Below are positions 1,783 to 64,000 of a stretch of 64,000 bases of DNA, one piece after another (within the stretch, counting starts at the first letter, position 1; every line of letters starts with the position of its first letter). The stretch lies in assembly GCA_963969365.1 (NCBI GenBank), contig OZ017753.1:2914001-2978000 (forward strand), in the 5' to 3' direction. The position numbers were made by a program, and so were the translations under genes. This DNA comes from Asterochloris sp. CNOR1 (taxonomy: Eukaryota; Chlorophyta; Trebouxiophyceae; Trebouxiales; Trebouxiaceae). The notes under the pieces were generated by a model, which worked only from the letters and a program-made list of their open reading frames with translations, was not told where the DNA came from and did no database searches.

Positions 1783-4700
1783 ATGGCACCAATCTCCTGG
1801 CCTCAGCAGCAACTGGTACAGCATTGCCAAGCTCTCGCATCCATTCACAAGGACTGCCGCCAGTTCCGGTGGCGGGCCAGCATGGTACGGCACAGCAGGA
1901 GTGTGGCCTTCCAACACCTGCAGCACTGCAGAGGCTGGGCCGCCAGGGTGCAGGCTGCTGCGAAGCAGGACACCCAGCCTGCCGGCCAGCGGTCTGTGGA
2001 CTGTGTCAGCACAGGCATGGACACCGAGGGCATGGTGTCGCAGGACGAGGACGCTGGTGAGGTTTGTGGGCATATGCTTGTGGCAGGCTGGTGGCTGATG
2101 AAAGGCGCGCTGTTTCCCTCTGAGAGACGAGCCACAGGTTTTGCTGTCTGTCCCTGGCAGCAAGCTCTGTGGGGAACAGCATTCGCTCAAAGGCAAGCGT
2201 TGCACCTGCAACTCAGCTGATGCCTATGCAACAGGACGAGTACCTGTTGCACTGCCCGTCATCCCAAGGGTTGCCACAGGGGCATGTCACTCTGTGCAGT
2301 AAGAGTGTGGCATAGCTGCATGGACCAAGCAGAGTGCAGGCAGCTTTCGTGTTCAGTCAGGCATAGTGACTCCCAGATACTTGCCTCAGTTATGTGGGGA
2401 TGTCATGGTCAGGCAGTATGTCTAGCAGGGTGTCCTGGCAGGGATGACATGCTCAGCATTGAGCTCTGCATTGGACATGACAGCCAAAGTCTGACTGCAG
2501 TCCATCCTGGTAGACAATTGCATTCGCCGACAGTCCCCACTGCTGTGACCCCCAGCTGACCTGATGCCTCTTGCAGGTTCAAGCAGCACACAGCCCCGAC
2601 AGCAGTCAGAAGGGGCTGTCGATGCAGCGGTCGAGCCTGCAGGCCAGCTGGCAGCATTCCTGCTCCTCATCTCCCCATTCTTCTTCTGGGGCACCAGCAT
2701 GGTGGCCATGAAGGTGGGCTGCTAAACACCCACTGTGTGCATTCTGGGCCGCTTGCGCAGCTGGCCAGCTTTGCCAAAGTCTTCAAGCCAGTGCTGGAGC
2801 CTTGCCAGGCAGCAGCAGCATGATCATACAGTGTCCTGGGCTGCATGCCAGATTCCTCGTCCTCTCCAGGATTGAAGGCGGTCAAAGCTGCGGCTACAGG
2901 GCTGCAGTCATCAGATGCTGCGGATGTCAGGGCCTAGCATTGCAGGGTAGGCACTGACTGTACTGCCTCTTTGGGCAGAGCTTGCCATCTGGAGCGGGGT
3001 GCTTCCGGCCTGCCTGCTGCTCGCTAGGCACAAGCTGGCGCCCCACACCAGCCCCCTGTTTGTCTCTTCTGCTTGACCTGCGCTGATCCTTTCCTGCTTT
3101 CTCTGCAGGAGCTGGCGCCCCACACCAGCCCCCTGTTTGTCAGCGCTGTGAGGCTGCTGCCGGCCGGGGGTGCGCTTATTGCGTGGGCCGCTGCTCAGGG
3201 GCGGCGGCAGCCTGAGGGGCTTCAGGCTTGGGGGGCAATTGCCCTCTTTGGTCTCGTTGACGGCACAGCCTTCCAGGTGTGCCGAGGTAGTCGCCACCAT
3301 GGGGCAGCTGCAGAGGTGCTGGTCAGCATTGTTAGTTGTGATGTCATTGAGGCAAGGTGGGTTGCATGGGCAGACAGCCTTGACTGGCCTGAGGAACGGC
3401 ACGGCCTGCTAGGTGCGCCGCCACTGCTGTAGCACTGCTCAGAAGCTCCGTGTCCATATATGGATAAGGAAATCCTGCTGATTACGAGCATGCAGCATGC
3501 CTTTTCCTTTCCTTGGCTATGTTTGTATTGCAGAGACGGTAAGGCCAGCCACAATCTGAGGAGGTTATGCTGCCCGCGTTCAGCTCCATGTTGCTGCAGC
3601 CACCCTCAGGGACAACTACACCTTGCATGGAATCGCTTACATGGTGATGGCCCTTTTGGCCTGGGTTAGGGCAGAGCCTTCCCTTAGGCTGTATCATTGA
3701 GGTCCTGCACCGGCATTCCATCATGGGTCCATCTCACTCAAAGTCTGCGCATCTGCCTTGTTTCCCTTCCTAAACACTGTGTTGTATGGCATGCTGTGCA
3801 GGGCTGCCTGGCAGAGGGGCTGCAGCGCACCTCGGCCGGCCTGGGCAGCGTGATCATCGACTCCCAGCCGCTGACCGTGACCCTGCTGGCTGCGCTCCTC
3901 TTTGGGGAGCGCATCAGGCCGGCGGGGGCCCTGGGCCTGCTGGCCGGCGTGGCTGGCCTGTGCCTGCTGGAGCTGCCGCCGGAGGCGCTGCAGGGCCTGG
4001 TGCAGCAGTCCACGACAGGTGTGCCTGCCAGGGCCCTGCTGGGCTGTGCCTGCTGGAACTGCTGCTGGAGCTGCCGCCAGAAGCGCTTTGGGGGCCTGGT
4101 GCAGGAATCTACAGCAGGTGTGCCTGCCGGGGCGGCCCTCAAATGTTCTGCAGGGTCGGGCGCATAGGGCCACATCAGGTGTGCAGGCGTGCAGCGTGAG
4201 GGGTGCTGCCCTGCTGGGCTGTGGCCGCCAAAGGTGCTGCGTGGCCTGGCACAGGGTTCCTTAGCAGGTGCGCAGGGGTACAGTCAGATGGAGTGAGCTG
4301 CCCTCTCTACGTCATCAGGCTGTGGCCGCCAGGTGTGCTGCGTGCTCTGGCCGCTGAGTACAGAGACCCCTGCTGTGTGTGCTTGCAGGTGGCCTGGGCT
4401 CCTGGCTACCCAAAGGCAGCTCGCTATGGGACAGCGGGGCCTGGTGGATGCTGCTCTCAGCACAGAGCATGGCTGTCGGGACCATCATGGTCAGATGGGT
4501 GTGCAGGTGAGCCGGCCCAGCCATGCATCTATGCATGAAACTCTGCAGGGTGCCCGCAAGCGTGGCTGCAGCCAATTCGGGTTGGTGTTGCTCACATGTG
4601 TGGCTGCTGCATGAGCAGCAGAATGGGATGGCGGGGGCTGGTCCATGCTGCTGTCAGAGCATGGCTGTGAGGACCATCATGGTCAGATAGGTGTGCAGGC

Positions 4701-6377: not shown

Positions 6378-8898
6378 TCAAGCACCGCCCCAGACTCCCA
6401 CATCGCGTGCCGGCGGCATCCAGTTTTTTGAGCTGTACACGCTCTTGCCCGGCTCCCAGCCATCTACACCCTCCATGATCTTTGCTTCTTGTTCTACAAA
6501 CTTATGATGGGCCTCCAGCCACCTGAAGGGCAGAAAGGTTCAGACAAGTCAGCCCTGCTGCTTAGCACCAGTCAGGCCAGACTCTGCAGCCCCTAATATA
6601 GCTGAAAGGCTACCATCTTAGCGCAGCATGATGTGCTACAGGCATTAGGGCCCTAGCACTACGGCGAGCAGCAAGCTTTTAATTGGCACTGCCCCTCTCA
6701 GCAGCTCTGGTGGCAGGGAAAATCAGCAGGCAATCACCGACAGCCAAGGCAGACCAGGTGAACTGCAAGCATCTTGAATGCACAATGTAGGCACAGTACA
6801 GCAGGCCTGACCTGCGATCTTCCTCTGCCTGCAGGACTGGCATGATGGCGTAGCGCGCCAGCTTCTTCTCAAGCTTCTCAGCTCGCCGCTCGTGGTTGGT
6901 CTCCCCCACCTGCTCAGCAGCCAAGAGGACATTGCGCACCCGCATCGAGTTGCATCTTGATTTCACTGTGTTGCATCCTGCTGCTCTGCTGTGTGGACCC
7001 ATACCGTGACAGAAGAGGTAAACACAGGCACCAATCATTACAAAGGCAAAAGTGGGGTCCTGCGTTACGCCCTGCAATTGCCATGTTGTAGCTTAGGTCT
7101 GCTTTGATGCCCTACCTCTCGTCAGGGCGTGCTGCAGCACTGTAAGGTGGTTGCTCTGTCTCTGCTCACAAAATGCAGGCCAGACGCACACCATGGGTGA
7201 AGCGCTGGTCGGGAGGGACCCCCAAGTTCCTGTCGTTGGACTGTGCAGGGTGGCCACTTGGCAAGGCAATACCTTGGCCTCACTTGTTACATACTCATTG
7301 GTACTCGAAGGGCTTCTATGGGTGGCATCTCAGCATGGATCGGGCTTCCCAGAAGGGTGACCCACCTTGTAGAAGCCATAGGCCATAATGGCAGTGGTCA
7401 CGCTGAACAGGGTGAAGCCCGTGGGGCCGGTGCTGGGCAGGCGCCGCGCAAAGCGGATGGAGGGGAACCCGCCAGCTGGGGGGCCATCTTGCAGGACAGG
7501 CAGGTCCTTTACAGACTGCAGGGGCAGGGCGCGAGCTGTTGGGCAGGGTGTCAGGCAGGGCAACCACTGCACAGCTCAGCGAACAGCCTGCGTGGAGATA
7601 GCGCCACCAACTGCTGTCTGGCAAGCAGGCAGGGCCGTCGCTGGCTGCAGAGGGCAGGGTGTCCAAGGCTGTGAGGCAGGACCAACCGCCATCGCTGCGC
7701 ATGGCAGGCTCTGCACAACATGCAGTTGGCCCCTGATTGCAGGTCGGCGCCAGTCCTTCACAGACTGCAAAGGCAGGGCATGCAAGTTGTCAGGCAGGAC
7801 CAAGCAGCGCGCACTGCAGGCGCTGCGAGGTACAGCAGTGCAGGCGATGCTGCTTCCTTACATGATGTCAAGCGATGGTCTCGACCAACTGCAGGGCAGG
7901 GCAGGACAGGGGCACAGCCAGGCGCTGGCTGCAATGGTCTTCTGGCAGGTACAGAGCAGGTGGTGCTCAGTGTTTTGTGAGAGGCAGCTGGTGCTCGTGG
8001 CTTGTGAATGGCAGGTGCTGCTCATGCCTATGTGAGGCCAAGGCTGCAATGACTGCAGGGCAGGGCAGGACAGGGGTGCGGCCAAGCAGTGGCACATCTC
8101 AGTGCCAGCTGCAATGAGACATGGGAAGGGATATGAGAGCAGCTGTGCCTTAAAAGCAGGCGCTTGTCTGCAGTGCAACTCCACTTAAGTGTCAAGCTGC
8201 CCTCTGCGGCGCAAAAAGGAGTGCACGCTGTCAGGCAGGTGCACTACATGGTGCAGCAGGTGTGCCGCAGCGTCCCTGAAGCTGCAGAAGATTTCTGCCT
8301 GGACAGCCACCTTTGACCAGTTGCATGCCGCAATCAGTCCTGGGCACGCTGCATTGTGTTGGGGAGGGTGGTGCATCGCGGGCCCTGCAGCGCTTGCACA
8401 GCCAGGCAGGCAGCACTAGCACGCTGCTGTCTGGCAGGATGCACAGCGCTCAAATCGCCTGCACTGAAGTGTGCAGCGTGCACAGCAGGCTATCTCTTGC
8501 TGGCCCCTGCAGCTCCTGGAGCAGCTCCAATTCTACGTGAAGATGCCGCATCTTACACCTACAGCCATGCCAAAACATGGCAGGCAGCATGCGGTGTACT
8601 GGACTGCACTGTTCTGGACAGATGAGCCCTCGACTGAAAGCACCAGATCTGCTGTATCTGCAAGGCAATGCTTTGTAGATGCAGTGAGGCGAGGGCATGC
8701 CTCAGCAGGCAATCACGTATCAACTAAGTGAGCCCTGCCAGCATAGCCCCAGGCATACAGGGTTCAGAGAAAAGCTTGTCGCCTGCATTGCCTGTGGCCT
8801 GACAGGGATCAGGCACCATCGCGGCCTGCGTGGCGCTGTGCCAGGCCAGGACTAATCACCTTGAGCCCTGGTCTCCCTCTCCTCAACGTCTCCGTCAT
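6378..8898 (-). CDS. NDUFA13: NADH dehydrogenase complex I subunit NDUFA13 (GRIM-19/B16.6)
   Basis: Four exons (8898-8860, 7515-7366, 6909-6812, 6522-6378) give 143 residues, the usual length of the plant subunit. The 13-codon first exon encodes MTETLRRGRPGLK and matches the plant N-terminus. It is followed by SVKDLPVLQDGPPAGG and FARRLPSTGPTGF, a membrane helix ending in YGFYK, then ARYAIMPVLQAEEDRR and KNWMPPARDV near the C-terminus. It is an accessory subunit of mitochondrial respiratory complex I, anchored in the inner membrane by its single helix. Intron 1 is 1.3 kb and carries a copy of the exon 2 acceptor and start at 7743-7775. The last codons (VWGGA) precede a TGA at 6380-6378. The gene is head to head with RPS15A. 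Confidence 0.95.
7743..7775 (-). repeat. Copy of the NDUFA13 exon 2 acceptor and first codons inside intron 1
   Basis: On the minus strand this reads pyrimidine tract, TTTGCAG, then codons for SVKDW, matching the true exon start SVKDLP at 7515. It lies about 250 bp upstream of the true acceptor. Flanking intron words (GGCAGGGC, TCAGGCAGG) are repeated as well. Confidence 0.75.
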
Positions 8899-11252: not shown

Positions 11253-11328
11253 ACGAGGCACAGCAGCGTGTGAGGATGGAGCTGCTTGAACTTCTTAGAT
11301 GTTATCGCCCAACAATGATTCATGTTGC

Positions 11329-12280: not shown

Positions 12281-12281
12281 T

Positions 12282-13335
12282 CTCGGCAGGATCTGGCAAG
12301 CCATCTGGTAAGCTAAAATCGTGATAAGAAAGCATCATCACCATTCTTCTCAGGTGCTGCCCCTTGCTGGACATGTGCAGACACCTGCTGATTAGCCAGC
12401 CAGCCCCTTGCTGGCCATGGATGCCGAGGCTCTGCAGCTTGTTTGGGCCAACTGCACCTTTGGTGCCAAAGCCGCACTGGCATGCACCTGCCGTAGGCTG
12501 CAGCAGAAGTCTCAGGGCTGGTCGTGGGGCAGAGTGCCCTCACAGCGATGGCAGCAAGCAGGATTTCAGTGGTGGCTGAGTTACAAAAAGCTCTCATGCT
12601 GGAATGAGTATGTGGTGCAGACGAAGGGGTCAATGGACAGGGACGGCGATTATGAGGCTGCTGAGAAGGTGCAGGCAGCATGGGAGCCTGGACTGGGGAA
12701 GCTCACGTCCCGCTCACCGGCAGGTGTGAAGCCAGCCCTCCCCTTGCAGTGAATAGGGTTGGGAGCTTCAGTCACGCATATCCCTGCAGATGCTGGCCTC
12801 TGTGCAAAGATTGGGCAGAATGCTGCTGGAGCCTCACCATCTCACTGCCACAACTGGGTGCGCTTTACAGGCTGGTGACGGCCGAGCTGAGTGCAGGCCT
12901 TGCTGGTGATTTCCTCAAACTAACCTCATCCCTGCCCTGCGTACTGCAGACGTTGGCTACGACCCTGTCACATGCAGCGCAGCGCTGTTCCCGGACAAAG
13001 ACGCTTGGCTCATGTCGGGATCCGCCACCTATATGCCAATGTTCAGGGTCATCTCCTCCCCCATGCTGCTGTACCGCTTGAGGTGCCTGATCCCATCCGG
13101 TAAGGTGGAGCAGTCGGACGGTTACAAGGGAGTGTGGCACGTCTGCCTGCGGCACAGACGCACTTCTTACCAGGCTGACTTTGGGGATTGCAAGGGTGGC
13201 GCCAGGATCAGTGCAGACAACTCCTTGGAGAAGGACGAAGCAGCCACACAGGACCTGCTGGACCTGGTTGAGCTGCTCTGCAGTGACTGCTGCCCCCACA
13301 CATATGACGGCACAGTGGCTGGATGCATCGCGTGA
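12282..13335 (+). pseudogene. F-box-like tandem family, copy 1 (start codon lost, early stop)
   Basis: The expected structure is a tiny first exon, exon 2 (12354-12723) and exon 3 (12950-13335). The first exon of copies 2 and 3 starts with ATG; here the aligned codon is ATA, followed by a GTAAGC donor. In exon 2 the aligned frame meets TAG at about 12391, where copies 2 and 3 have AAG or GAG. Downstream the frame is fully open, so an internal start at ATG 12417 (MDAEALQLVWAN) would give about 230 residues. The N-terminal block ALQLVWANCTFGAKAALA and CTCRRLQQ resembles an F-box helix set (Leu-rich start, Cys-Arg-x-Leu). The C-terminal domain contains YMPMFRVISSPMLLYRLRC and ends TYDGTVAGCIA. 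No function beyond F-box-like can be claimed. It is either a shortened gene or a pseudogene. Confidence 0.6.
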
Positions 13336-13795
13336 CGGAGCCAGTCATAGCAACTGACCACCAAGAGTCAGGCTGGTCTGCTGCCAATGACAGTCTTGTC
13401 CCTATCTGTGAAGTGCTTCAGACTGCAAAAGCCCACTGCTTGCAGCATCAGTTGCAGCAGTGCAAAAGGTTCATTGTGGAGGAAAGCTGAGCAGGGTTGG
13501 TCAGATGAACCTGCTGCTGCTGCTACCACTTAGTCAGATATGTGAGAAGTCTTACCACACTTGAGCACTGCTGATGGGGGCCAATGCTTCCTCAGGCCCT
13601 GTGTCAATCTGAAGGTGACATTCAGGTAACCTATATTGGATGCCTGTGTCGCACGGTCAAGGTCGTCTTACAACGACTTGACAGTGCTGGCCGTCGCTCT
13701 TAGGCGCCTCAGCGGTGCCAGCGCGACCCCGCAAATCCCAAGACGAATTTGCAGCTGCCTGTTGTCCATACCTCCAATATTTAAGCACAAAATAC

Positions 13796-14893: not shown

Positions 14894-15268
14894 GCTGTGA
14901 TCTACCCTTACCTCTGCTGCCAATGGCAGTCATGTGCTGCTCAATTAGATTATGGAGTGATCCAGAATGCAACACCCATTGCATTACCATCAGGAGTGAA
15001 AAATCTTAGAGCTGCTGGCAAGCTAAACAATGTCTACAAGATGAAGCTGCTGCTGCTGGCCCTGCTGCCCACTGAGGTGATTTGGTGAAGGTGAACATTC
15101 AAACCTATTCTGCTTCATGTCACATGAAGAAGTGCGTCGCAATAACCGCCACAGCAACTTGACAGTGCTCACTGTCACCGTGGGCGTCTCTGACGCTCCA
15201 AAGGGCGACACCACCGGCTCCACACCAATACCGCAGCTGCCCCGACCAGGTCGGCCGCACAACAAAAC

Positions 15269-17538: not shown

Positions 17539-20500
17539 TCAAAGCTTAAAGGCAGCAGCAGGCCGTGTGCCTCCCAGTGCATTGGCCCCTGGCTTTGCTC
17601 TCTTGTCAGTCCCTGCCTCTGCAGCATCCCGCTGCTCCTGCAGGTGCTTGAAAACCGCGCCTGACTTGGTGTAGTCCATCTTTTTGGCCTTCACAGGGGC
17701 TGTGTCCTTGGTGCCCTTCTTCTTCTGCTTGGCAGCCTTGGCAGCAGCTGAGTCATCTGCCTCAGACTTGCGGCCAATAATGACAGCCTCGCCTCCCAGG
17801 TGGGATGGCTTCAGGCGCTTCTCACCAGCCTGCACGGGCCATGCAGCACTGCTGAAAGAGTGCAAACAGCTGCTGCGAGGCTGCTGCACACAGCTTCCCG
17901 CCCCAGTCGCACTGCTTCAGGGGCTTGTGCATGGCCTGAACGGGTTACACTTGCTCCATTGCCTGCAAGATCCCCTGCGAGGCTGCTGTACGCAGCCTCC
18001 CCGCCCTTTCAATGTGTTCTAAGTGTTTGACCTGCATGAGGGCTGGATGGGGAGGAGGGCCTATGCAGGTTGATCACTTGAAATGGTCACGGCTGCGAGC
18101 AGCATGCCCTCCCACAGGAGAACTGAACAGGCACGCAGCTGTTGCCATATAATACGGTGGAAAGCAACTTGAAAGCTATACTGCTCTCATAGAGTGCTTG
18201 TGCGTAGCAAGCAAGAACACGCATACCAAAGAAAGTGCAAGACTTTCCTTTCTGACAGAGAAGAGTTGAACAACATTGCGTGGCAGTCCCTGGCAACCGC
18301 TCTTGCATGCATGTGTGGAGAATTCTATGTGGGAAGGGTACAGGGGCCTCTGCTTGCCTGCCAGGGCTTTTGCTGGAGGGTGAGTACTTTTGCTGGGAGG
18401 GGCACAGGAGCACCTGTGGCGGCTGCCAGCCAGGTCACCACAGTCACAAACCACACAGCCAGCACAACTGCAGCTCGCACGGACCCATGGTCACACAGGC
18501 AGCTTGAAGGTTTCCATGCCCAACTGATTGCACCTGGGCATCAAGTATGATGGAAGACTGCAGTGTGCACAGGCAACTCCCGCGCAGGCTAAATGATGTA
18601 GGCGTCCCTGTCTGCTCTGCAGTCTGTGCTTTGACCATGCATGCAGCTCGAGAGCCCAGCCCTGCACGGATTAAGGCAAGGGCAGGAGGTGCCACACTCC
18701 CTGAGGCAGGCCTGATATTCTTGTTTCGCCAAAAACACTTAGGTTCCTTTTCTGCCACTCCTTCTGGCTCCAGCCACAAAGCAGAACGCGCAACACAACC
18801 CCCGCGAGCCGCCCACCTGCCCCTCCTTCTCCTTCTTGCCCCCACGCTTGCGCTTGGCCCGCGCTGCATGGCGCTGCTCGCGCGTCAGCTCCTCAGCAGT
18901 GCGCGGCTGTCCATGCTGGCTGCTGTGGAAGACCTCCTCAGGGGCACGCATGGTGGCCTCAGAAGCCACCTGCAGAGGAGGGGGGCAGCCAGATGTGGCA
19001 GGCGTGTAATGGATGCAGGCATCTCCACATAAAATCCTTAGATGCTCCCTGCAGATGAGAGGCAGGCAGCAGAAGTCTGGGTGCACGACCTGACATGCAG
19101 TTGCAGCAGGCTGGTGTTGAGATTCAGATGTCTATGCACTACGCATCCGTCCTCAGTGCAGCCAAGCTGGGGGAGGCCTCAGATGCCCCCTGCAGGAGGC
19201 AGGCACACGTCTGTCAGGCAACACAGCACGGCTGGCGCACACACCATTGCACGCTGTACAGGCAGCTGAAGGTGGTAGACAGCAGTGGTCTGAAGGCTAC
19301 CCAAGCCGGTGCACCATGCATCTGCAGCAACACAGCCGCATGTTGAGCTACCCTGCGACCTGCAGTCAAGAGACAGGCAGCAGATGTACTGGTTGCTCTG
19401 AGCTGGCAGAGCAACGCTGCTGCAGCGCCACCCTCCAAGCCATGTGTGGGGGTTGGCATGTGATGCGCAACTTGCTCAGGAGCAGCTTTGGACCCAGCAC
19501 CATCCAGCTCGTCTTATACTTGTGGACCCGCCCCCATCCCCCGCAGGCCAGGCCAGGGGGCTGGAACATCTGAGTGCACCAGGCCACCACCGTTGTGCTC
19601 ACCGCCTACAGCCACTCTGCAAAAGATGCCGCCAACATTTCACCTGTGGAGCCACCTCCTCCATGGCCAGGGCCGGCACATCTGAGCGCACTTGCAGCTC
19701 CTCCAGCACCGGCTTGGGGGCAAAGTGGAAGTGGGTCAGGGAGTCCAGCTTAACAAACAGCTCGCGCATGAGGCGGCAGGCCTCGTCACGCACAGGCTGA
19801 TGCCTGTCGGCCGCTGAGGTCACCCCTGTGGCCGCCGAGACGTACTGCTCCTCATACAGCTCGCCCAGACCCTGCGGGGGAGTGACTTGACTGGTCAGCA
19901 TCTGCAGCCTGCTGGCGCCGTGTGGTGGCAGAGCCATACTGGACCCTGTAGAGCTTCCCAAGGCCCTGCTGGCAGGCAGCCTGTTTGGCCAGCCCCTGCA
20001 GCCCGCTGGCGCTGTGTGGTGGCTGAGTCATGCTGGACTTGCACAGCTCGCCCGGGCTGTGCCGGCAGGCAGCTTATTTGGCCAACACCTGCAGCCCGCG
20101 AGCGATGTGTGGTGGCTGAGCCGTGTGGGCGCTGGGTGGGCAATGCGCAGGGCCAGGCCTCATGTCTGCTGCAGCTCCTCAGCAACAAACCCAGGGATGG
20201 ATGTGTACCTTTGTGCTCCTCTTGTCGTCCAGCTCCACAACAAGCTTCTGCTTCTCAGGCGGGGGAGGCACCACCTTGGGGGGATCGTCAAAGCGCTGGT
20301 CAGCAATACGCTGCCTGCAGTGAAGTCCAGCCAAACCTTCAAGCTGTGGCGTCTGTCACCCTTTTGGAGCAGGCACTGCAGGGTGCATGCACAGAAATGT
20401 ATAGATGCAGGCCCTGTGCGAGCAGACAGCGCATGACAACCATCTGGCAGGTGCTGGCTGCTCAGAGTTTTTGTGATGTCCCCCGCAGCAGCGCTGCCCT

Positions 20501-51781: not shown

Positions 51782-54700
51782 ATGAGGAGTTTTGATGCAG
51801 GGGAAGGGCCCCCCATAGCAGATGCTAGGCTGTCCCCTGATGGCACGCTGCTGGCTGTGCAGCGCAGTGCTGCCCAGCTGCAGGTGAGTGGCTGCATGGG
51901 CTGCTTCTGGCTGCTTGCAGCCACCAAGTACATTGCAGCAGGGACCAACGACCTTGGGCCTGCGTCTGGCTGCTGGGAACCACACTCACTACTGCTCTAC
52001 AGACCAGCAGCACCAGTGGCCTGCTTCAGCCTGATTGAAGCATTCGCAGCATTGCTGTGCAGATTACCTGCAACAAGCGCCTGCGTCAGCCTGTTACAGG
52101 CACATCAAGCATTGCTATGCAGATGATGGGCAGCTGCAGGCTCCCCATGCACTGCTGTGTGGATCAGCAGCATCAAGATTTGCATCAAGCTGCTTGATGG
52201 CTCACTCAGCATTGCTGAGCAGCAGCAGGGGCCTGCCTCAGCCTGTATGTAGGCGCACTGCACATCTTCTCTGCGGGCTGCTTCAGGCTGCTCGCGGGCT
52301 CTTTTGAGAAGCGCTACACGTGTGCTGGGCACAAGCGCTTGTGGCTGCTGGCAGTCTCATGCAATGCATGCACCGGCCAGGAAGGCAATTGGTACTGAGG
52401 GCTCGCCGCCCTTTGCTATCCTCCTGAAGCACATTCATCTGTTGGGAGCAGGCACAGGCCATACTGAGCTGAACATTGAACCTGCAGGTGCTGCAGCAAA
52501 GTCGCAACAAACTAGCTTTCGGGACGCCCTCCAGATTCAATCGTCATGTGGTCATGCCTGCAGGTCCTGCAGCAGGGCAGCGACAAGATGTTTGTGCAGG
52601 CGCCACGGGCACGGAGCCCACTGCTGGGCTTCTGGTGGCCTCAGGGGGGGACCTGTAGCCTTGTCATGGCCACAGCCCAGGCAAGCAGATGCACAGAGCA
52701 GCTCCCTCTCGAGTTGCTGCAACATCAACTATGGCTGTTGCGCCTGTCCTAGGTATTGACACCTGTGCAATTGATGACAATGGCGAACACACCTACAGCT
52801 GCATGTCATTTGGCAGCAGCATCGATCGGGGCATAGTACAGCGTGCCCTTCAAGACGCTGCTGTCCAGCAGTTCACCCATGCTGGCAGGCTGTTGACGGA
52901 TCAAGCAGGTGACCCACAACATCATGCTCTGCCATGCCCTACACGTCTGGCCTGCAGGGCTATCGCTGCATGGCGTAATACCAATGCACTGCAAGTCTGC
53001 TCCGCCCTGCTGTGTGGAGACTGAAATTCTACAGCTGCAGCCCGAGCAATGTGGCCAGGTGCTCATCCAGCAGCGCTCCCACCCAAGTCTCAGCATCTGT
53101 TGGTGAAGTATGAAGCCTGTCCTGGTCGGAAGGCCGCCACCTTGAGCACTGCAAAGTATTGCGCCCTGCACAGTGCTGCGCCCTGCAAAGTGCTCCGCCC
53201 TGCCCCCAGAGAATTGGAGCTGCATGATTTCATACAATCTGTTGTGTAAGCGGCCAGGCCCTGCTGTGCAGGGGCTGGAGCTGTACGGCCTGCAGCCCAA
53301 GCAGCAGGGCCTGGCGTACATAGAGAGGCGCCCCCACCCGGTGCGCTGGTGCAGCTACAGCCATGAGGCGCGGATGGCACTGCTGGGCACAGGGGAGGGC
53401 GGCCACTGGGTTCAGGTGACTAACCAAACATACCCAAAATTGTGGTCATGGGACAATCAACAAAGAGCGGTGCACGAGACCTGCACAGAACACAGACCAA
53501 GATCTGCATGGGGCCTGACACACTGGCGGGTGCCAGGTTGTTTGGTGTACAGACCTGCGGACAGACTTCTGGGCATGGCGCAGGAGGACACGGACATCAG
53601 GGCTACTGCTGTTGTAGTCAGTGGCCTTGCAGGGGACAGGGGAGATAACTTCTTCTGATTCCTGGTGACCACGAGTTCAAATTCAACAGAGATCGGGCTG
53701 GGCATGCAGAATGACCCACCTGCTGGTGCCTGAAGGGTGCCTGCCAAGCTTTTGTTGGCCTCTTTTGCCACAGAAATTAGGAATCGCCTGATCCAGGCGG
53801 GTTGCAGGTCTGCTGCACATTCTTCTGGACCACCACATTCAGGCAGGGAAGTTTGGGTGGTCCAGGTGGAGGGAGGTCTGTTTCTGGATTTTTCTGCCTG
53901 CACACCAGCAGGTTGTGTGCAGCAGCATCTCTGCCTGCGATGTGTGCTGTTTCCGATCCCATGTATGTAGCAGCAGACTTAAGTAGCCCTACATGTAGCT
54001 GGACGTGTGCAGCAGCCATCTGTGCCAATAACGTACGCAGTCACTGAAAGCTTTGTATGCAACACTGATTTGTGCTCACCTTACCTGCAGGCATACCAGT
54101 TTGCAGAGGCGGGGGTCGTGCGGCTGCCTCCTTTTCAGGTGCGCATTGCTCTGATGTCAGTAAGAATCCTTGTGCAGTGTACACACAACCACTCAGGCGT
54201 CGGCTTATCTGGTGTCTCAGTGTCCTGCAACGCTGACACCTGTGCACAGCTGCCCACAAGGCTCCTCTGCCTGCACAGCTGCTCCTGCACCTGACCTGAC
54301 GACTGCTGAGCCACTGCCAAGACCCAATGTTCCAGACGACTGGCTGCACAGCGTTCCTCATCCGTATGGAGCAGCAAACTGCTACACAGGTGCAGCTCAT
54401 CAACAAGGCACATAGCACACCAAGGAACGCGTTGCCATTCCCTGCACAATACAGGTTTCAACCTCTGAGCCTGAGCAGTGCGGTTCCCCCCACCCTCTTC
54501 CCGAGTTTGGCCCACACAATGTGCAGCTGGTGACCATGTACGGCCGCGTGTACTGCTGCCACCTGGACGCCATTGGGCAGCGGGTGCAGCTTTCCCGCAT
54601 TTACAAGTGAGCTGCTTGGAAGGCCTGACATGAGATGCATGCATGCATGGCTGCCGCCTAGACGCCAGTGGACAGCAGGCTGTAGCTGTTTCTCATTTAT

Positions 54701-57700
54701 GAATGTTCTGAGGGACCTGGCTTGACATGCATGCCTGAGTGGAGGGACAGTACATGGAGGCCATCTGCACCTACAAAGGAGCATGTGGCGGTGCCTGGCA
54801 CTGGTGCTCGCATGTGATGCTGCCAGCTGAAGAGCAGCAGACGAGTGCATTTTCAAGAAAGCATCAGTGGGTCATTGACAGGTGTGGGCTGGGTCACGCA
54901 GCGCCCTCTCATTTCAGCTCCCTTTGTTCTGGGCAGGGTTGCAATGGGCCTGCACTTGGTCCTGGACACAGCAAGACTGAGAGCAGCAGCATAGGGCTGA
55001 GCATCCTGACAGCCAGATTCTGAAGATGTGCAGGGACCTCATTGCCCTGCACACTGAGAGCAGCAGCAGCACCCCAACACTGTGCCTTCTGTGAAGTCGG
55101 GCAGGGACGCTATGGTCCTGTAGCTTCACACTGGAGACTGAGAGCAGCAGCATGGGGCTGAGAACTGTGTCAGCCTAATTCCAAAGATGCATGCGTATCT
55201 TGCCGCCCTGCAGACTGCAGCAAGGAGGTCAAAACTGTGATGCGCACCATGCAGGGATGCTGTGGTCCTGCAGCTGACCCTGGAGACTGACAGCAGCAGC
55301 ATGGGTCTCAGCACAGTGGACAACCTGCTAGTGGTGCACAACCTGCGCCGAGGAACCGCTTTGCTGTTCGATGTCCTCGCTGACGGCGCATCTCCTCTGG
55401 CTGACGCATGTCCCGTGCACCAACAGCAGCTCCAGCAGGCTGACCGGGTAAGCAGTCTGTAGATCCTGCTTGGCAGCCTCCCCAGTACCCCGCTGTCTAT
55501 CGTTAAGTCACATGCAAAGCCTGCACAAGGCCTCCCGCTGCATCTGTGGGAAGGCCACAGACGTGCTTGCTGTCCACTGGTTTCCTCAGCAGCCTGCCTC
55601 TGCATTGCAATGACATGCTTGCCGGAGGGCTCCCATTCCAGCATTTTGCAACACAACATCCGGTCTGCCGCCTGTTCACTGGCGCACCCTTCCACTCACC
55701 CATGCATTCTCTTGAACGCCTGCAGGAGGACTCCCTGCCCACCAGTTCGCAGCCGCGGGCGCTGCCCCTGTCCAGCCAGCCCTCGGAGTCTCAGCTGCCC
55801 TTGGGCGCGCCCACGCCGGAAGCCCCAGGGGGTGCCATACCGCCCCAGCGCTTGCCATCTGGGCCGGTTCAGGTCAGCAGCTGCCGTCATGCTGTCTGAA
55901 CGTATGCGCGCCCTGCCTGTGCTGGGAGCGCAGGTGAGGTAGAAGCTGCTGTTGCCCTCCGATGGCTGAGGGGTGTGGTTAAAAAGTCAATGACCACCCG
56001 CCGAGGTTACCACTGAAGCAATCCTTGTTACTTGACCCCTGAGCTGCTGCGCCTGTACAGGGATGGGGACCAGGTGGGGGCCATGGTTTTCAGGGATCTG
56101 ACTGGTCTTTCAACTCACCAACCAGCTGTTCTCACTGGTCTCTCAACTCTGACTGGCCTGCCCACTCCTGAGCTGCCCGGTGGCAGGCAACACTCTGTGC
56201 GAGGCTGATTTCGCCAGGGCACTGCGCAGCGCTGTCCCTCTGCCTGGCCATGGTGGTCTGAGGCCAGGCTGAGAGTCATTGCTTGAGTTAGCCTCCCCCT
56301 GCAGTGATGCGACTGTGTGCCACGCCCCACTGGCAGGAACGAGCTCCTGCAACCTTGAACACCCCCCTTCTGGCCCTAGGGCAGGAAGGACGTACCTGCT
56401 GAGGGGCATCACTTGTGCAGCATCTCAACTGATGGCCTCCAGCCTTGTTGCAGGAGTTGGGAGTCTGCTGAGGGCAGCTCCAGGCCCGCTTTCAGCAAGC
56501 ATCACTTCCTGTTCTAGTGCCCACTGTGGGGTGATGAAGGTTGGCACTCTAGCAGCATCTCAATCGATGGCCTCCAGCTGTGGTGCAGGAGTGGGTGTCC
56601 GCTGAGGGCAGCATGCTCCAGGCCCTTCCCTCAGCAGGGCAATTCTTCCTGCCCTACAATCTGAGGTGGGATGATGAAAGGCAGCGTTCTTGCAGCATCT
56701 CTACTGATGGCCTCCAGCTATGGTGCAGGAGTGGGTGCTGGCTGAGGGCAGCATGCTCCAGGCCCTCCCTGAGCAGGCACCCCTGGACCCAAGGTGGGGT
56801 GATGAAAGGCAGCACTCGTGCACCATCCCTAGAAATGAAATTGTTGATGGCCTCCAGCTGTGGTGCAGGAGTGGGTGTCCGCTGAGGGCAGCATGCTCCA
56901 GGCCCTCCCCTCTCAGGAGCTGCCCCCGCAGGTCTGGGACTCAGCCCAGTGGGACGCCTCAGCCCTGCTGACGTACCCGAGGGGCCGAGGAGCCAGTCTG
57001 GACCTTCGCGGCACCGGCGGCCGCAGCGCACGCTGCGAGCTGCCCCGCCATGTGCTCACAGATGGGGACAGGCAGGTCAGTGGCACAAGCGCTCGCACTG
57101 CGCTCTGCAGGTTGCCCCAGCGTGTAGTCGCAGATGGAGCGCGTGACATGTGATTCCTGTATACAGAGAACGTTTGTGGTGTCTGTGAGTGGCACAGGCA
57201 TCTGCATCACATGCTGCCATGACTTGTCGCGGGTGCGTGCTGGCAGACAGGGGCGGGCAGGTGAGCGGCACAGGCGCTTGCTCCGTACCATTGAAGCCTC
57301 CCCAGTGTGATGTCACAAACAGAGGGCAGCAGGTCGGATCCATCAACTTCCCCTGTCCAGCATGGGTACTCTCGAAATGTTGGGCACTCGGCGCTGCAAC
57401 TGCCCTGCCAAGGTATTTGGAAGCCGTTGGCGGTGTTCCCAGCTTGACCCTACGCTTGTCACAACAGCACAGCAGCCTGTTGATGCTGCATGCTTTACGA
57501 ACGTGCATTTTAGTCAATAGCCATGTGCTCTGCACTGTGGACGTGGCCGCTGTTCAGTGAATGCCAACTACTGGGGCGATTAGTTGCCGCTGCTGAACAG
57601 AGTGTTGCCCTGTTCAGTGAGCTACTGTGGCTCAAGACAAGCCACTGTGGACAGGGCTCTTGCAGCATACCACACACACCAGCAACAGGTGATGCACACC

Positions 57701-60700
57701 TCTGCTGACACATGCGTCACTCCTGCAGGTCTGGCGATGCACCGTGGACGTGGCTGCAGTGGCGGCATGCATCGCAGACACGCCCGCCTGCCTCGCCTTC
57801 CTGCAGCGGCGCTCCCCTGCGCTGCACCCCACGGTCAACCTGCGTGCCCTCAGCATCGCCATTGTCAAGGTCAGTGGCTGCCTTTGTGCCTGCTGCTGCC
57901 GCATACGCCCTTTGTTGGTTGATACCTGAGCGAGCATTGGAGACACTGCCAGGGAGGGTCCGCAGCAGTTGCGGCAGGGTTTAGCGTTCAGCGCTCTCCC
58001 CTGCGCAGCACCCCACAGTCACCCTGCGTCCCCTCAGCTTCGCCACTGTCAAGGTCAGAGGCCGCTTTGCTGCCTGCTATTGCCCCATGCACCCCTCGCT
58101 GGTTGATGTTTGGGAGGCATACGGCAGCACACTTCTGCGGCCAGGGAGAATCCGCAGCATGGGGGCCGTCTTTTGGTTCAGCAATCAGCCATCCACTACT
58201 TCATGGATCTGCTGCCCACCCGTCACTATGTTTATGCTTGGGCTCAAGGCTCCAGTACACAGCCGTCTGTGCTGTACTCCCTGACGCAACTATGTGCCGG
58301 GCAGCCTCCTGACAGGTCTATCAGCTGCCAGGAGGCAGCCATTGGGTTTTGAACCCTCCTGCTCACTCTCTGCTCCTAGAGCCCTGTGGGAGGCAGGTGC
58401 TGGCATCATTTCACAGCTTACACCTTAGCTGCACCCTGCCAGCTGCAGGCTTGCGCCTGGCTGCTTGCAGTTTAGCGGCTTTACTGCTGCTTGAGGTGCC
58501 CTCCCAGTGCCAGCCAGCGATTCAGAGCTGTTGGATGCAGACAGAGGAGTGTCTCATGGCCCCTGTGGTGTATATATGTCATACCATGCAGGCTTCCTCT
58601 GCTGCTGGCTCTGCGCAAGCTAGATCATTCCAATGGCGTCCGTTTGTCTGCCAGTCACCTGCAGCCCTCACACCAGGCCTCCCTCCTGCCTGCAGAATGT
58701 CCTGGTTCACAAGCAGCCCCTGCAGCTTGCACGGGCAGCCTTCGATGCCCTCTGTGGAGCTTGCGCCACAGCTGTGGCTCGGCAGCAGCGCAAGCCAACC
58801 CAGAGCGGGGTGCCGTTGCCTGCAGTTAATGCCGGAGTGAGCCTGTTACAGTAGCCTGAAGGGCTTGACAGTGGTAGCGGTAGTCTAGACTGTGCGGCTT
58901 ATCACATTCAGCCGCCAGCTTGCTTCTCACATGACGAGTGCCAGCCTGCGTTGCGTTGCCATCCTCGCACCTGGAAGCACACTCACCTCACCATACTGCC
59001 TGAGCTCATGCACTGCTCTCTATGACAGGGAGTGCCCTGCTAAGTGCCAAAAAGAAAAGCAGCCCCACCTGCACCCTTGACCTTTCTTTGCAACCGTGCG
59101 CAACACATTGGAGCTTCCTTGGGCTCAAACCTGCACTGAGAGCGCTGTGCTCTTCAGCAAAGCCCTTGCAACAGCTCTGATCAGCCGCCTGCTGCTGCAG
59201 ATGATGCTGGAGAATGTGTTTGCGCCCTTGCTGGCCACTGGCGCCACGCCTTACCTGATGGTGAGGCCTCACCCTCTAAGAGCAGCAGCCAGTCTGGACA
59301 CAAGATACCCATCATGGGCGTGCTTCTCTGGTTGTTTAGCTATGCATGACTGCTGTCGCTTGTAACAGTTGCTGATGTCGCTTGTAGCAGTTGCTCCTGG
59401 ACAAATTGGACTTGCAGACGCAAACTTGCAGAGCAGTGACCTGCTGGCAAGCCACTTGCAGCTGCCCGCCTTGTTTAGGCAGATGCCAAACCCCGGCCTG
59501 GGTCGTACCTGGCTGAGGCTCATGCAGCGCGACAGTTGGGAGATGTGATTCACTCACTAGCACCTTGAGAGACTGGCTGAGCGAGGCCACCGCGTGATGC
59601 TGCCTCCTGTTGCTCTGAAACAGAAGCTGCGCTGAACGGCAGACAGGGCGTCACGTGCTGCCCTGCAGTTGCCTGTGTCAGCGTCGGTGAACCAGTTACG
59701 ACGGCGCAACATGCTGCAAGGGCCCTGCTGAGTTTTGCTGACTGGCGCTGCTGGTGTGGTCTGCAGCACCCCCCTCTGCCTGGCCCTGGAAAGGCATCAC
59801 AAAGTGCAAATTGACACAGCTGGTGGCTCACCCAGTGCCTGCCACAGAATGCATGAAGCTGTGTCCTGCCGTCCTGCAGGCTGCCCTAGTCGAGTACCTG
59901 GACAGCTGCAAGGTTCATGGAATCACAGCATAGAGTGCGTGAAGCCCTTTTCTGCCCGTTTACAGGCCGCCCTGGTTGAGTACCTGGACAGCTGCGAGGT
60001 TCATGGCCTCACCACTCCGTCCAGCATGCAGACCCTGCTCGTCAATCTGATGCTGGAGCTGGGTGCACAGCACCAGGTGAGCAGAGGGCGCACCAGCATC
60101 TGCTTCCTGGCAGAAGCCATGCGCCGATGCGCGCTCCGTGCTTGCGCCCTGTTGAGCCAGCCCTAGTTGGGAAGAGCAGCGGCATGAATGACGGGTGCTG
60201 ACATGCTCTGTGCTGGCCCACAGTGAGCGACCCACAGTCAATAAGAGCAGCAGAGTCATCTGGGAGTTCATGAAGGGTACTGACACAAACTGGCACTGGC
60301 CTTTGCAGGTGCCCCTGCTGCTGAGCGAGCCTTAGATGGAACAGCAGCATGTCTACAGGCCCGTTTACGCAACACGACATTGGCCTTTACAGCCACTTGG
60401 AGCAGCAGAGTGGATGGTCAGTGCTGACAAAAGCTGGCTTTTGCCTTTGCAGGTGCCACCGCTGCTGAGCAAGCCTTACATAGGAAGCCTGACACTGGCC
60501 TGTACAGGTGCTGAGCCACTCCCGGTCAATGGGAACATATACGCCAGGGGTCAGAACAAATATGGCATGATACAAGGGCGCTGATGCAACTAGACACTGG
60601 ATCTGGAGGCGCCTGCGCTGCTGAGCCACCCCAGTTTGCACAGAACAGCGGCACAAACAACAGGCGCTGACATGCTCTGCACTGGCCTCCAGGGAGCCAG

Positions 60701-61864
60701 CCAGAGTCAGAGAGAACAGCGCCATGGCTGAAGGGGGCTGACGCAACCTGACACTGGCCTTTGCAGGTGCCCGCGCTGCTGAGCCAGCCCCAGTTTGCGC
60801 AGAACAGCAGCGTGGCGCAGGCGCTGGCAGCCGCCCCACAGGCAGCGATTCCACCCCATGCTCATCAGCTGGCAGTGGACCTGCAGGTGCAGTGTGGCAA
60901 CCTGTCAAGCGCGCTGCAGACTGTATTGAGTATTGTGGGTGTGCCTAAGCCACACATACACAAGGCGTATGGCCCTTTGTGTAAGGAAGCACTGGTGACC
61001 AAGCTGCTATCCATCCTGCCACCACATTGTTGTGCAGACAGCAGTGTTTGATGGACTGGCAGCAGTGTTAGTATGCCTTGTGTAGAGGCCCACTGTCATG
61101 AGCAAATTCTACTGCTGCAGCCACGCTCGATTCTCTCTTGCTACACAGCTGTGCATCTGGGTGCAAGAGTCTCTCAGGGCTGTGCAAAGCAGTGCAGAGG
61201 TACAAACTGGCAGCCACTGTTGTGTGCGGCGCATGCAGGGACGTCTGGGCAACAGGCAGGAGCAGTGCGAGGGCCTGCTGGCTCAGGGCCAGCCCCTTCA
61301 GGTATGGTCTGCAGTGGCTTTTGCAGCATTTTACATGTTCTGCAGCATTGCTTGCAGAGCTTGATAAGCTGATTCGACAAGAGGCAGTGAGGCACAACAA
61401 GCGCGATGTGTCTGTGCTGTGTTGTGTGCGGCAGCAGCACGTTGTCTGTCGTGTGCTTTCTGGTTGCCGGTCTACCGCCTATAGCGCATGTGGGCTGCAT
61501 CGTGAGCGGCAGCAGCGACTCTGTCTGGCACATGCTTTTTCATCATGAGTCTGCCACTTGTGTCCAGCTTGGCACTGATGTGGCCTCTCTACTCCCTGGC
61601 GGCTACTCCTTGAGTGGGGCTTCTAGCTGCATGAGGCTCATCTGATGACCACGCCTGCAGGCGCTGCAGCTGGCCCAGAAGCACAAGCTCGCCACGATCC
61701 TACCTGCCCGCTTCCTGGAATGCGCGGCCCGCACAGGCAGCCTACTGAAGTTTGTGGCAGTGTACCGCACGTGCAAGGCGGCCGTGCAGCCGCCGCTGCC
61801 GCCCTTTGCCAGCCTGCTGGCCGAGTTCCAGCCTCTGTTGGACGCGGCGGCTTTATTGTGGTAG
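51782..61864 (+). CDS. RMC1: Regulator of MON1-CCZ1 complex (RMC1/Mic1, C18orf8 family)
   Basis: Fifteen exons join in phase to 649 residues: 51782-51883, 52564-52680, 53272-53415, 54091-54138, 54455-54606, 55255-55447, 55726-55872, 56869-57075, 57729-57869, 58696-58836, 59201-59260, 59966-60076, 60767-60886, 61239-61301 and 61661-61864. Family blocks in order are LSPDGTLLAVQRS, LLGFWWPQGGTCSLV, GLELYGLQPKQQ, GVVRLPPFQ, LVTMYGRVYCCHLD, IYKDAVVLQLTL, VDNLLVVHNLRRGTALLFD, AFLQRRSP, LVEYLDSCEVHG, PPHAHQLAVDLQ and ILPARFLECAARTGSLL. RMC1 acts with Mon1-Ccz1 to activate Rab7 on late endosomes and vacuoles. The first exon may begin at 51763 (CAG then WSGDNSMRSF), with a missing N-terminal exon upstream. 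Intron 2 uses a GC donor. The acceptor of exon 8 is ambiguous because it is present in four copies. Confidence 0.88.
52480..52580 (+). repeat. Acceptor-side copy before RMC1 exon 2
   Basis: ACCTGCAGGTGCTGCAGCAA at about 52481 mirrors the real CCTGCAGGTCCTGCAGCAGG at 52559. Similar words continue after both (CGCAACAAACTAGC against CGACAAGATGTTTG). Confidence 0.7.
54930..55320 (+). repeat. Three decayed acceptor-side copies before RMC1 exon 6
   Basis: The true exon start (CAG, GGATGCTGTGGTCCTGCAGC at 55255, then GACTGACAGCAGCAGCATGG) recurs at about 54935-55010, 55033-55075 and 55096-55170. The copies share ACTGAGAGCAGCAGCAT. The nearest copy has CTGTAG where the exon has CTGCAG, an in-frame stop. 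Confidence 0.8.
56445..56935 (+). repeat. RMC1 exon 8 acceptor in four tandem copies, 135-140 bp period
   Basis: CAG plus GAGT(G)GG...CTGAGGGCAGCATGCTCCAG occurs at 56451, 56586, 56726 and 56866, preceded each time by GATGGCCTCCAG. The last copy leads into the open exon. Copies 2 and 3 also have open, in-phase starts (EWVSAEGSMLQALP and EWVLAEGSMLQALP). Confidence 0.85.
57809..58056 (+). repeat. Donor-side copy after RMC1 exon 9
   Basis: The exon end CGCTCCCCTGCGCTGCACC ... GTCAAG with GTCAGTGGC at 57870 recurs 184 bp downstream at 57991-58053, ending GTCAAG with GTCAGAGGC. The copy keeps the frame and an intact donor. The intron sequence after both (GTTGATGTTTGGG against GTTGATACCTGAG) is similar as well. 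Confidence 0.8.
59874..60015 (+). repeat. Acceptor-side copy before RMC1 exon 12
   Basis: CAG 59877-59879 is followed by codons AALVEYLDSCKVHGI and then ITA and TAG. The real exon at 59966 reads AALVEYLDSCEVHGL. The copy is 86 bp upstream, with about 45 bp of strong similarity and an in-frame stop soon after. Confidence 0.85.
60300..60820 (+). repeat. Three acceptor-side copies before RMC1 exon 13
   Basis: CTTTGCAG followed by VP(A/L/P)LLS codons occurs at 60306, 60450 and 60764 (the real one). A fourth, degenerate copy at about 60607 has GAG in place of CAG but longer exon similarity (CCCAGTTTGCACAGAACAGC). Spacing is 144-157 bp. The first copy meets TAG after eight codons. Confidence 0.85.
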
Positions 61865-62030
61865 CCGCTGCTGCCGCCCTTCGCCAGCCTACTGGCCGAA
61901 TTTTAGCCCCTTATGGAGGCGGCAGCTTGACAGTGGTAGCTGTTGCTGTCACCCTTTGCCAGCCTGCTTGCCGAGCGCTCAGCACCTGCTGGAGGCAGTG
62001 GCTTGATAGTGGTGGCTGCTGCTGGATGCG
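61795..62030 (+). repeat. Terminal RMC1 exon end repeated downstream of the stop codon
   Basis: The block CTGCCGCCCTTTGCCAGCCT with GCTGGCCGAG and GCGGC...GTGGTAG (61790-61864) recurs at about 61866-61940 and 61941-62020 with increasing change. All lie after the stop, in the 3' UTR. Confidence 0.8.
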
Positions 62031-62064
62031 GCAGCCTGAAAGCGCCATCAAGATGGAGGCCGCT

Positions 62065-62602: not shown

Positions 62603-64000
62603 TCAGATGCCTGCAACAGCACCGTCTTTTCCACCCTTAGGCTTGCCCTCACGCTCTCTGTCCTTCAGTGCTTTCTCAGCATCAGGACGTGGCAGGTCAA
62701 AAGTCTCAGTCACTCTGCCGTAGCTGATGCCGCCCAGGCGGCTGATCGGCTGGTACTTGTCCAGGTCCACCACCAAATTGTCAGAGTGGGGTGTCCTGCC
62801 TGCCACGCCCTCATGGATGTGCCAGAGCAAGACCTCCGCAATCAAGATGTTTGCTGTGACCTTCCCATCCCTGTAGGACCCACCAAAACAGTCTTGGACG
62901 CAACATCGCAGTCTCAGGCAACTGTACACAGTATTGTATGTATGTATTCAGTGCACCTCTGCATCGGGGGAACTGGCAACAGTGGGCACCAGAAATAGAT
63001 GGTCCCCTCGGCCAGGGCTCAGCAAGTCATGGCAATGTGTCGGACACCAAGTGAGCGCCACTTTGTGCCAGCAGGCCAGACAGATGTATAAGCACGCCTA
63101 CCTCAGGTAATGCATGGCTCCACGGGGGCAAGTGGAAAAATTACAGAAGTTAAATTTTTGCGTGAAAGCACTCACTTGTTTTTGATCTCATAGTTGTGTC
63201 TCAGCTCGCACTCCATCTGCACTGCGCTCTCCTTGACCCTGGGGGGCTTCACCTGCATCAGGTGCACAGGGCTGTTGCTTGCTGGCAAGAAAGTTCACCA
63301 GCACCTCAGTCTTTCAGCTTCACAGGAAGCAGCTTCTGGGACCTGCTGTCTGAGTCCTTCAGGGTGAATGGTGATTCAGGGGTGGGGGGGGGTCACCCCT
63401 CACAACCTCCCCATCTCACTCTCCTTGGCTCAGAACACAGTGTACGCCACTGCTGAGCAAGCTGCAGTGTGTTCGATCCCCGCCAGGCTGCTCCCGCTGT
63501 TTGGCTGCACCGCGCGGGTCGTACAACTTGCTGTTGCCCCATAATGGAGCTCACACTGCCTGCTGTTGCCCCATGATGGAGCTCACACTGCCTGCTGTTG
63601 CCCCCGCACGATGCGAGCGTGCTGCAATCCAGCTTCTCAATGGGAATGGGTGTGGCCCCACCACATTATAAACATTGCAGCTCGCTTTTGCCCTCACAAT
63701 GAAGCTCCTTGCTACCCACCTTCTGGCTGGGGATGGGGGTGAGCCCCACAAAGTCCATCTCGTCCACGCCGTGCTCAAAGGGGGTGCAGGTGTAGTTGGC
63801 CGCCTCCACAAACCAGTTGCTGATCATGTTGAGCGTGAACTGCCTGCAGGGAGCAGACAGCATGAGCCCTCAGGAGTAAGAACTGCTCCCTCTACATCGT
63901 CAAAACTGGTCAGTCGCTGAGCATGGTTTTCCTGCGGAGCAGACAACAGACTTTGAGTGCGAGCAGGTGCAGGCCGCTCCCTCCACAGTCCAGTTGGCGG
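62603..64000 (-). CDS. Flavin-reductase-like (FMN-binding split-barrel) protein, 5' end off the right edge
   Basis: Three 3' exons are visible: 63843-63720, 63252-63176 and 62870-62603. They join in phase and encode about 156 C-terminal residues, with earlier exons beyond 64000. Motifs are QFTLNMISNWFVEAANYT, PFEHGVDEMDFVGLTPIPSQ, KPPRVKESAVQMECEL, ANILIAEVLLWHIHEG, YQPISRLGGISYGRV and FDLPRP. This order (G-x-DE-F-x-x-A/V-GLTP-x-PS, then PPRV-x-ES, then LGG-x-x-Y) is typical of the DIM6/NTAB flavin reductase family, which binds FMN as a dimer and is common in bacteria and fungi. The C-terminus is a charged Lys/Glu/Gly tail. The substrate is not predictable. Confidence 0.8.
63540..63765 (-). 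repeat. Donor-side copy after a flavin-reductase exon, with short tandem repeats
   Basis: On the minus strand, codons VGPHPFPLRSW at about 63635-63670 copy the exon end VGLTPIPSQKV at 63720-63755. Next to them TGCTGTTGCCCC(A) with GGAGCTCACACTGCC is repeated in 40-bp tandem units at 63526-63605. Confidence 0.7.

Follow-up and report, generated by a model that had tools for sequence, protein, structure and literature searches.

Decayed tandem duplications across exon-intron junctions and the lengthening of introns in the green alga Asterochloris sp. CNOR1

The introns of the green alga Asterochloris sp. CNOR1 carry decayed copies of the edges of the exons that adjoin them, and these copies are tandem duplications of whole units that are not specific to splice sites. 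The feature was noticed in a first-pass annotation of a 64-kb stretch of the genome (the window; C8:2914001-2978000, on a contig 3108280 bp long and ∼130 kb from the contig end), which described copies of exon ends and splice sites in the introns of several named genes. By adding a further 230 kb from the same genome, we confirmed that the intronic copies are real and genome-wide; they are also scarce between genes and mostly old, and these three properties go beyond the earlier description. The duplications lengthened introns and did not create them. The tandem-duplication reading of the first-pass annotation was largely right, and its interpretation overall was partly supported. We strongly favor an explanation in which small tandem duplications arose without special regard to junctions, decayed neutrally, and lengthened introns, with activity that peaked in the past.

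RESULTS

Copies of exon edges in the adjoining introns

The sample comprised 294 kb of a single genome, whose assembly spans 56.4 Mb in 21 contigs (one of which carries rbcL), and was divided into a window set (the window plus 10-kb flanks, 84 kb) and the other 210 kb (elsewhere). The best protein matches of this rbcL, at up to 93% identity, are consistent with a green alga or plant; those with names include mosses, seed plants, and green algae. A hidden Markov gene finder that was self-trained on the sampled sequence converged on 83 genes and 456 introns, with a predicted mean exon of 161 bp, a median intron of 266 bp, and consensus donor and acceptor sites of CAG/GTGAG and CTGCAG/G. GC stood in place of GT at ∼6% of all predicted donors. 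Eight of the nine proteins scanned had a Pfam match, and the proteins named in this way were RMC1, EamA, GRIM-19/NDUFA13, MPP10, bZIP, 1-Cys peroxiredoxin, flavin reductase, and ribosomal S8; an armadillo/HEAT-repeat gene was also Pfam supported. A protein search for RMC1 returned no matches.

We compared each exon edge (at most 60 bases of exon with 15 of intron) with its adjacent intron, a comparison of exons with neighboring introns that the first-pass annotation had proposed and that was made here on the 294-kb sample. Twenty-six of the 456 introns were shorter than 80 bp and were left out, as were 30 of the remaining 860 edges that gave too short a query, leaving 830 edges. At a score of at least 16, the edge's own adjacent intron held a match in 75/830 cases, compared with ∼0.15 expected from the introns of other genes. 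Matches were found for donors (11/98) and acceptors (19/99) of the window set and for donors (25/317) and acceptors (20/316) elsewhere, with an expectation from other genes' introns of 0 to 0.1 per class; against the same intron in reverse complement, there were 0 to 1 matches per class and 2 in total. When only Pfam-supported genes of the window set were considered, 10/72 and 16/73 edges matched (expected, 0.05 and 0.0). All eight genes in which intron copies had been reported have at least one at this threshold, peroxiredoxin only just (Table 1).

The copies lie close to, and on one side of, the edge that they resemble. Within the window, ungapped matches with a score of at least 16 occurred at 33 to 60 per 100 offsets in bins from 12 to 200 bp but at 0 at 5 to 6 kb and 0.2 at 20 to 21 kb. 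Among 342 internal exons, the 3′ edge had a match in the downstream intron in 19 and in the upstream intron in 2, whereas the 5′ edge had a match in the upstream intron in 23 and in the downstream intron in 0. This ratio of 42 near-side to 2 far-side copies bears out the earlier statement that donor copies lie downstream of the true donor and acceptor copies upstream of the true acceptor. The range of 77 to 190 bp given with it was too narrow: the window set has offsets as short as 47 bp and as long as 458 bp.

At least one edge copy was found in 33/76 multi-exon genes of the sample, and lower thresholds suggest some trace at about 10 to 26% of junctions. The density of copies in this locus had been remarked on, and the window is indeed the densest region sampled, with 114 local matches in the 84-kb window set against 86 in 210 kb elsewhere (∼3 times denser), but the feature is not confined to this one locus. 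One 10-kb stretch nearer the contig end was not dense, which gives no indication of a simple subtelomeric effect. When windows were aligned onto themselves, nothing was shown except one RMC1 case. Short periods dominated the output of a lenient repeat-finder run, whose simulated control had a high background, and no claim is drawn from it.

Whole units are duplicated head to tail

Gapped alignment of 55 cases, chosen by exon sequence alone, showed that what is duplicated is usually the entire stretch between a copy and its source, in direct orientation. The ratio of aligned length to offset had a median of 1.17 and a lower quartile of 0.80, and the median score was 35.5, compared with 12.8 at shifted offsets. 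Intron sequence of at least 20 bp was co-duplicated with the exon edge in 37/55 alignments. Unit sizes are mostly 60 to 200 bp, with junction-copy offsets most often between 80 and 120 bp (30/75). Together with the near-only copies and the predicted exon's keeping its exon-proximal site, these results uphold the proposal of tandem duplication across junctions.

We also weighed a junction-targeted process that copies exon ends and splice sites into the intron. Four observations count against duplication of whole units without special regard to junctions, and the last three of them favor such a process: 18/55 gapped alignments extend <20 bp into the intron; the ungapped profile reaches background ∼24 bp past the junction; coverage at the exon edge exceeds that 20 to 75 bp into the intron in both sets; and outside the window set, exon-side coverage falls to 0.2 to 2.3% at a depth of 75 to 100 bp from 6 to 7% at the edge, faster than in a simple junction-blind model, which predicted about one-third of edge coverage at that depth. 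The reliance on gene models from a self-trained predictor also weighs against the junction-blind reading. The co-duplicated intron sequence argues against targeting, as does the finding that 55% of matched bases lie in purely intronic matches, and a frozen exon keeps junction copies detectable for longer. Copying of the junction only, as the ungapped profile had indicated, was set aside after gapped alignment, although exon-edge coverage still leans to the junction. We attribute the short intron reach to indels and to the faster decay of intron against intron, and slower decay of exon-containing pairs may account for the edge-leaning coverage. A junction-specific process was not supported and is improbable.

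Tandem Repeats Finder listed seven rows with a period of at least 75 in the window, with 1.8 to 3.1 copies and 75 to 93% matches. Minisatellite arrays, which would hold many similar copies each, were rejected as a description on the basis of these low copy numbers. Only six listed repeats had an identity of at least 0.88, 3 of them with an offset of <40, and the edges that would bear the breakpoint signature of staggered-break fill-in, with little microhomology, are decayed.

Copies decay neutrally beside a conserved exon

The copies decay neutrally beside an exon that selection holds in place. In 64 cases, mismatches between exon and copy were spread evenly over codon positions (0.241/0.223/0.241), and junction-copy offsets modulo 3 (16/17/22) showed no frame preference, as was also the case for noncoding matches (24/26/32). 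Exon bases 5 to 30 from the junction matched at 0.74 to 0.81 and intron bases 9 to 30 from it at 0.56 to 0.62, with unaligned bases counted as mismatches; a lower likeness of the intron part is expected if the exon is static and, in the intron, both copies accumulate changes. By comparison, all 7 exon-exon matches had offsets that were multiples of three, although these come from only about five places, so a frame filter on exon-internal duplications is supported by few cases.

Substitutions from exon to copy cover a broad range (C>T, 0.102; G>A, 0.086; A>G, 0.137; T>C, 0.091; transitions/transversions, 0.88), and those at CpG are in twofold excess (0.39 versus 0.195). Repeat-induced hypermutation as a cause of the scarcity of young copies was rejected on account of this breadth.

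Tandem exon duplication, including mutually exclusive exons, is a known system, and the copies might be unannotated or alternative exons that arose in this way. One RMC1 exon is duplicated whole, and 6/18 donor and 7/20 acceptor copies have position-weight scores no lower than that of the true site. The alga's copies differ in decaying without coding constraint: given the even mismatches over codon positions, the lack of a multiple-of-three preference, and splice dinucleotides that are not preferentially kept, we rejected coding exons with retained constraint and frame and consider alternative exons quite improbable. The gene finder called part of the RMC1 exon copy (58009-58053) an exon.

The first-pass annotation further held that the copies supply a graded series of decoy splice sites. 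Among the 44/64 cases with a junction-spanning alignment, the splice dinucleotides were retained at 0.72 (donor) and 0.76 (acceptor), compared with 0.79 and 0.77, respectively, for the four exon bases beside them, and a maintained series of decoys found no support beyond the presence of the sites themselves. That duplications are maintained as decoys, or as regulators of intron length, would fit the presence of a usable-looking site in about half of the mapped copies (log-likelihood ratio of >3 in 9/18 donor and 10/20 acceptor copies), but dinucleotides that fare like the adjoining exon bases make maintenance very improbable.

Introns were lengthened, not created

Introns with detected duplications are longer than those without, both in the window set (median, 596 bp [n = 43] versus 309 bp [n = 64]) and elsewhere (421 bp [n = 56] versus 231 bp [n = 293]), although long introns also offer more room for them. 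Duplication density tracked median intron length over 14 segments, four of which are from the window set (rho = 0.83; P = 0.00025), and over the ten segments outside it (rho = 0.63; P = 0.049). These results agree with the earlier proposal that duplication makes introns grow.

Under the Rogers model, introns are created by duplication of AGGT-containing exon segments, and the donor and acceptor consensus sequences do have CAG/G in common. If the introns had arisen in this way, the two junctions of one intron should resemble each other, yet at an identity of 0.45 they did so in 3/389 introns, compared with 2.59 expected from mispaired junctions, and in none at an identity of at least 0.5 (41/430 introns were dropped from this test because their flanks were too short). 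Intron creation by this route was rejected on the basis of this chance-level likeness, and we regard it as extremely improbable.

The duplications are scarce between genes and mostly old

Duplication clusters are concentrated in genes. We counted 105 in genes (and 4 in exons alone) and 9 in intergenic DNA, which makes up 27 to 29% of noncoding bases (P of about 0.0001 to 0.0002 in each set). Depending on the measure, the frequency of duplications in introns exceeds that between predicted genes by a factor of ∼5 to 15. This scarcity also counts against a process that hits all DNA alike, by which it is not explained, and thus needs either stronger selection between genes or a transcription-linked cause. 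Short intergenic stretches may be under constraint, genes may be mispredicted, or the duplications may be linked to transcription; each of these could account for the scarcity.

Young copies are rare. At offsets of 40 to 250 bp, none of 30 intronic clusters reached an identity of at least 90%, whereas steady production predicts 17%, and neither did any of 61 other clusters (57 that touch an exon and 4 intergenic), for which 14% was predicted. Burst models outperformed a steady state by ∼11 and ∼12 log units for intronic and other clusters, and the fits placed the bursts at about 0.20 and 0.25 substitutions per site in each copy, respectively. In simulation, the pipeline detected 99 to 100% of copies up to a pair divergence of 0.2. 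Exact 30-mers at offsets of 40 to 600 bp occurred at 3 places in the 294 kb, all in the window. Because young copies are fewer than old ones, contrary to constant production and loss, the production or fixation of duplications probably fell, possibly because repair changed or because selection became stronger or weaker. The fits suggest a past wave at roughly 0.2 to 0.25 substitutions per site.

Several observations weigh against an old wave: exon-part identity of at least 0.9 over short stretches in 7/63 junction copies; a 72-bp match at offset 280 (56561) that is 93% identical, outside the 40- to 250-bp range used; an 89-bp bZIP array with 93% matches in Tandem Repeats Finder; four exon-rich clusters that were dropped from the age test; and short-period repeats (26 and 32 bp) that include near-perfect members. 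Tandem duplication as such is compatible with steady production in which the young class is missing through an assembly or sampling effect. The sample covers only 294 kb and, with the 7/63 junction copies of high exon-part identity, leaves some room for this alternative. However, 21 contigs for 56 Mb and the absence of N from the window and from 20 further stretches that were counted suggest long reads, and assembly collapse of young copies is unlikely in such a contiguous assembly. The deficit also appears in the window set and elsewhere and in two pair classes. We consider steady production unlikely, although it retains appreciable weight.

Catalogue of copies in the window

The copies located in the window are listed in Table 1. 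The 75-bp array that lies over the end of the predicted RMC1 coding region is real. One earlier assignment needed adjustment: the flavin-reductase acceptor copy extends past the end of the window.

Table 1. Positions of duplicated exon edges and related units in the window
Feature	Position	Strand	Copies and units
EamA intron	2714..3108	+	Acceptor-side copy 3017-3064, offset -77; copy splice site lost (AC)
EamA intron	4019..4698	+	Donor-side copy 4092-4132, offset +99, GT kept; similar units on to ∼4351
NDUFA13 (GRIM-19) predicted intron	7516..8859	-	Acceptor-side copy 7753-7779, offset 249, AG kept
MPP10 intron	19872..20208	-	∼93-bp unit array; acceptor-side copies near 19966 and 20059
bZIP predicted intron	29887..30878	+	Donor-side copy 29942-29987, offset 92, splice site lost; related units 29754-30009
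bZIP intron	31003..31857	+	Donor-side copy 31063-31141, 89-bp unit that spans the donor; well-preserved two-copy case
bZIP intron	31003..31857	+	Acceptor-side copies 31641-31668 and ∼31758; offsets ∼100 and 203
Armadillo-repeat gene intron	37974..38529	-	Acceptor-side copies 38067, 38174, and 38294
Armadillo-repeat gene intron	39600..39949	-	Acceptor-side copy 39650-39695, splice site lost
Armadillo-repeat gene intron	40101..40537	-	Acceptor-side copies 40245 and 40325-40360
Armadillo-repeat gene intron	41590..42185	-	Donor-side copy 41987-42041, GT kept
1-Cys peroxiredoxin intron	44613..45282	-	Array, offsets ∼94-97, 155, 252, and 347
1-Cys peroxiredoxin intron	44613..45282	-	Donor-side copy 44921-44947, score 16.0, weakest among named genes
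RMC1 intron	54607..55254	+	Donor-side copy 54650-54679, acceptor-side copy 55128-55165; splice sites lost
RMC1 intron	55873..56868	+	Acceptor-side array, ∼140-bp units; copies 56729 and 56589, AG kept
RMC1 intron	57076..57728	+	Donor-side copy 57237-57275, offset 185, GT kept
RMC1 exon 57729-57869 and decayed tandem copy, offset 184	57729..58107	+	Alignment takes in whole exon and intron flank
RMC1 intron	59261..59965	+	Acceptor-side copy 59877-59926, offset 86, AG kept
RMC1 intron	60077..60766	+	Acceptor-side array; copies 60309, 60453 (TTTGCAG kept), and others
RMC1 coding end into 3′ flank	61788..62024	+	About three 75-bp units, predicted coding region
Flavin-reductase intron	63844..64000, on to 64054 past window	-	Acceptor-side copy 63963-64028, splice site lost

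Other repeats were also present in the window. Positions 12336 to 17326 are occupied by about four related genes, or parts of genes, arranged in tandem, with a unit of ∼1.5 kb in part; matched stretches are 68 to 88% identical, and the two predicted proteins scanned had no Pfam match. Near-perfect repeats with periods of 26 and 32 bp lie in predicted introns at 46616-46674 and 63529-63604 and are unlike the older duplications of 60 to 200 bp.

DISCUSSION

In the mechanism that we propose, small tandem duplications, mostly of 60 to 200 bp and most often of 80 to 120 bp, would strike genes with no special regard to junctions. Where a unit spans a junction, the exon-proximal splice site would presumably stay in use, and the second copy of the exon edge and its splice site would pass into the intron and decay neutrally. 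Exon-internal duplications would survive if they keep the reading frame. Repeated duplication would yield longer introns, with the exon edge left almost unchanged as a standard for the decaying copies next to it. The duplications themselves most likely arose when staggered breaks or paired nicks were repaired through fill-in and end joining, and activity appears to have peaked at about 0.2 to 0.25 substitutions per site and then to have fallen. More tentatively, and with some doubt, we suggest that an ancestor of the alga underwent, for a limited time, a wave of small tandem duplications, few of which survived outside introns and their edges, and that the wave then largely stopped, so that a visible part of today's intron length would be its debris and exon edges would date its events.

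Events of this kind are already known, and it is their density, confinement to genes, and apparent age profile that are noteworthy. Small tandem duplications, ascribed to break repair, are described as the most common short insertions in humans (PMC8355091). Like the products of fill-in and end joining at staggered breaks (by Pol alpha-primase/CST, or at paired nicks), the alga's duplications are direct and head to tail; they differ in being mostly 60 to 200 bp long, old, decayed, and concentrated in introns, and their junctions are too decayed to show the break chemistry.

Internal gene duplication was reportedly treated by Gao and Lynch in 2009. It resembles the present case in that duplications fall within genes, and according to a potato study that cites it (PMC4974935), some of them take in whole introns. 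Tandem duplication has long been proposed as a route to new introns and partly demonstrated (PMC3443670; PMC4974935); there, too, gene segments and splice signals are duplicated in tandem, and the potato report notes an 83-bp duplication within an intron. In the alga, by contrast, existing introns were lengthened, and the test for new introns was at chance. Introner elements (PMC9860276) likewise add sequence inside genes, but introners are copies common to different genes, whereas the alga's copies match the adjoining exon. Exon edges with 15 intron bases gave an expectation of ∼0.15 from other genes' introns against 75 adjacent matches, a check that covers edge queries only. Among the matches listed in openly licensed papers, none reported a genome-wide lengthening of introns through tandem duplications that cross junctions, which is weak evidence of absence. 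Conspicuously long introns are known from core-Reinhardtinia algae, and their advantage in Chlamydomonas reinhardtii is called unknown (PMC8226300).

Intron lengthening is usually hard to see, as a duplicated stretch of intron decays in both of its copies. A duplication that crosses a junction stays recognizable and datable because selection holds the exon copy still, and intron growth, its rate and timing, and the rejection of frame changes become countable across a genome. The same decayed copies are a warning for gene predictors, by which they can be mistaken for exons, as in RMC1 here. If the wave is true, relatives that diverged before or after it would help to tell whether intron size was set by altered repair or by altered selection.

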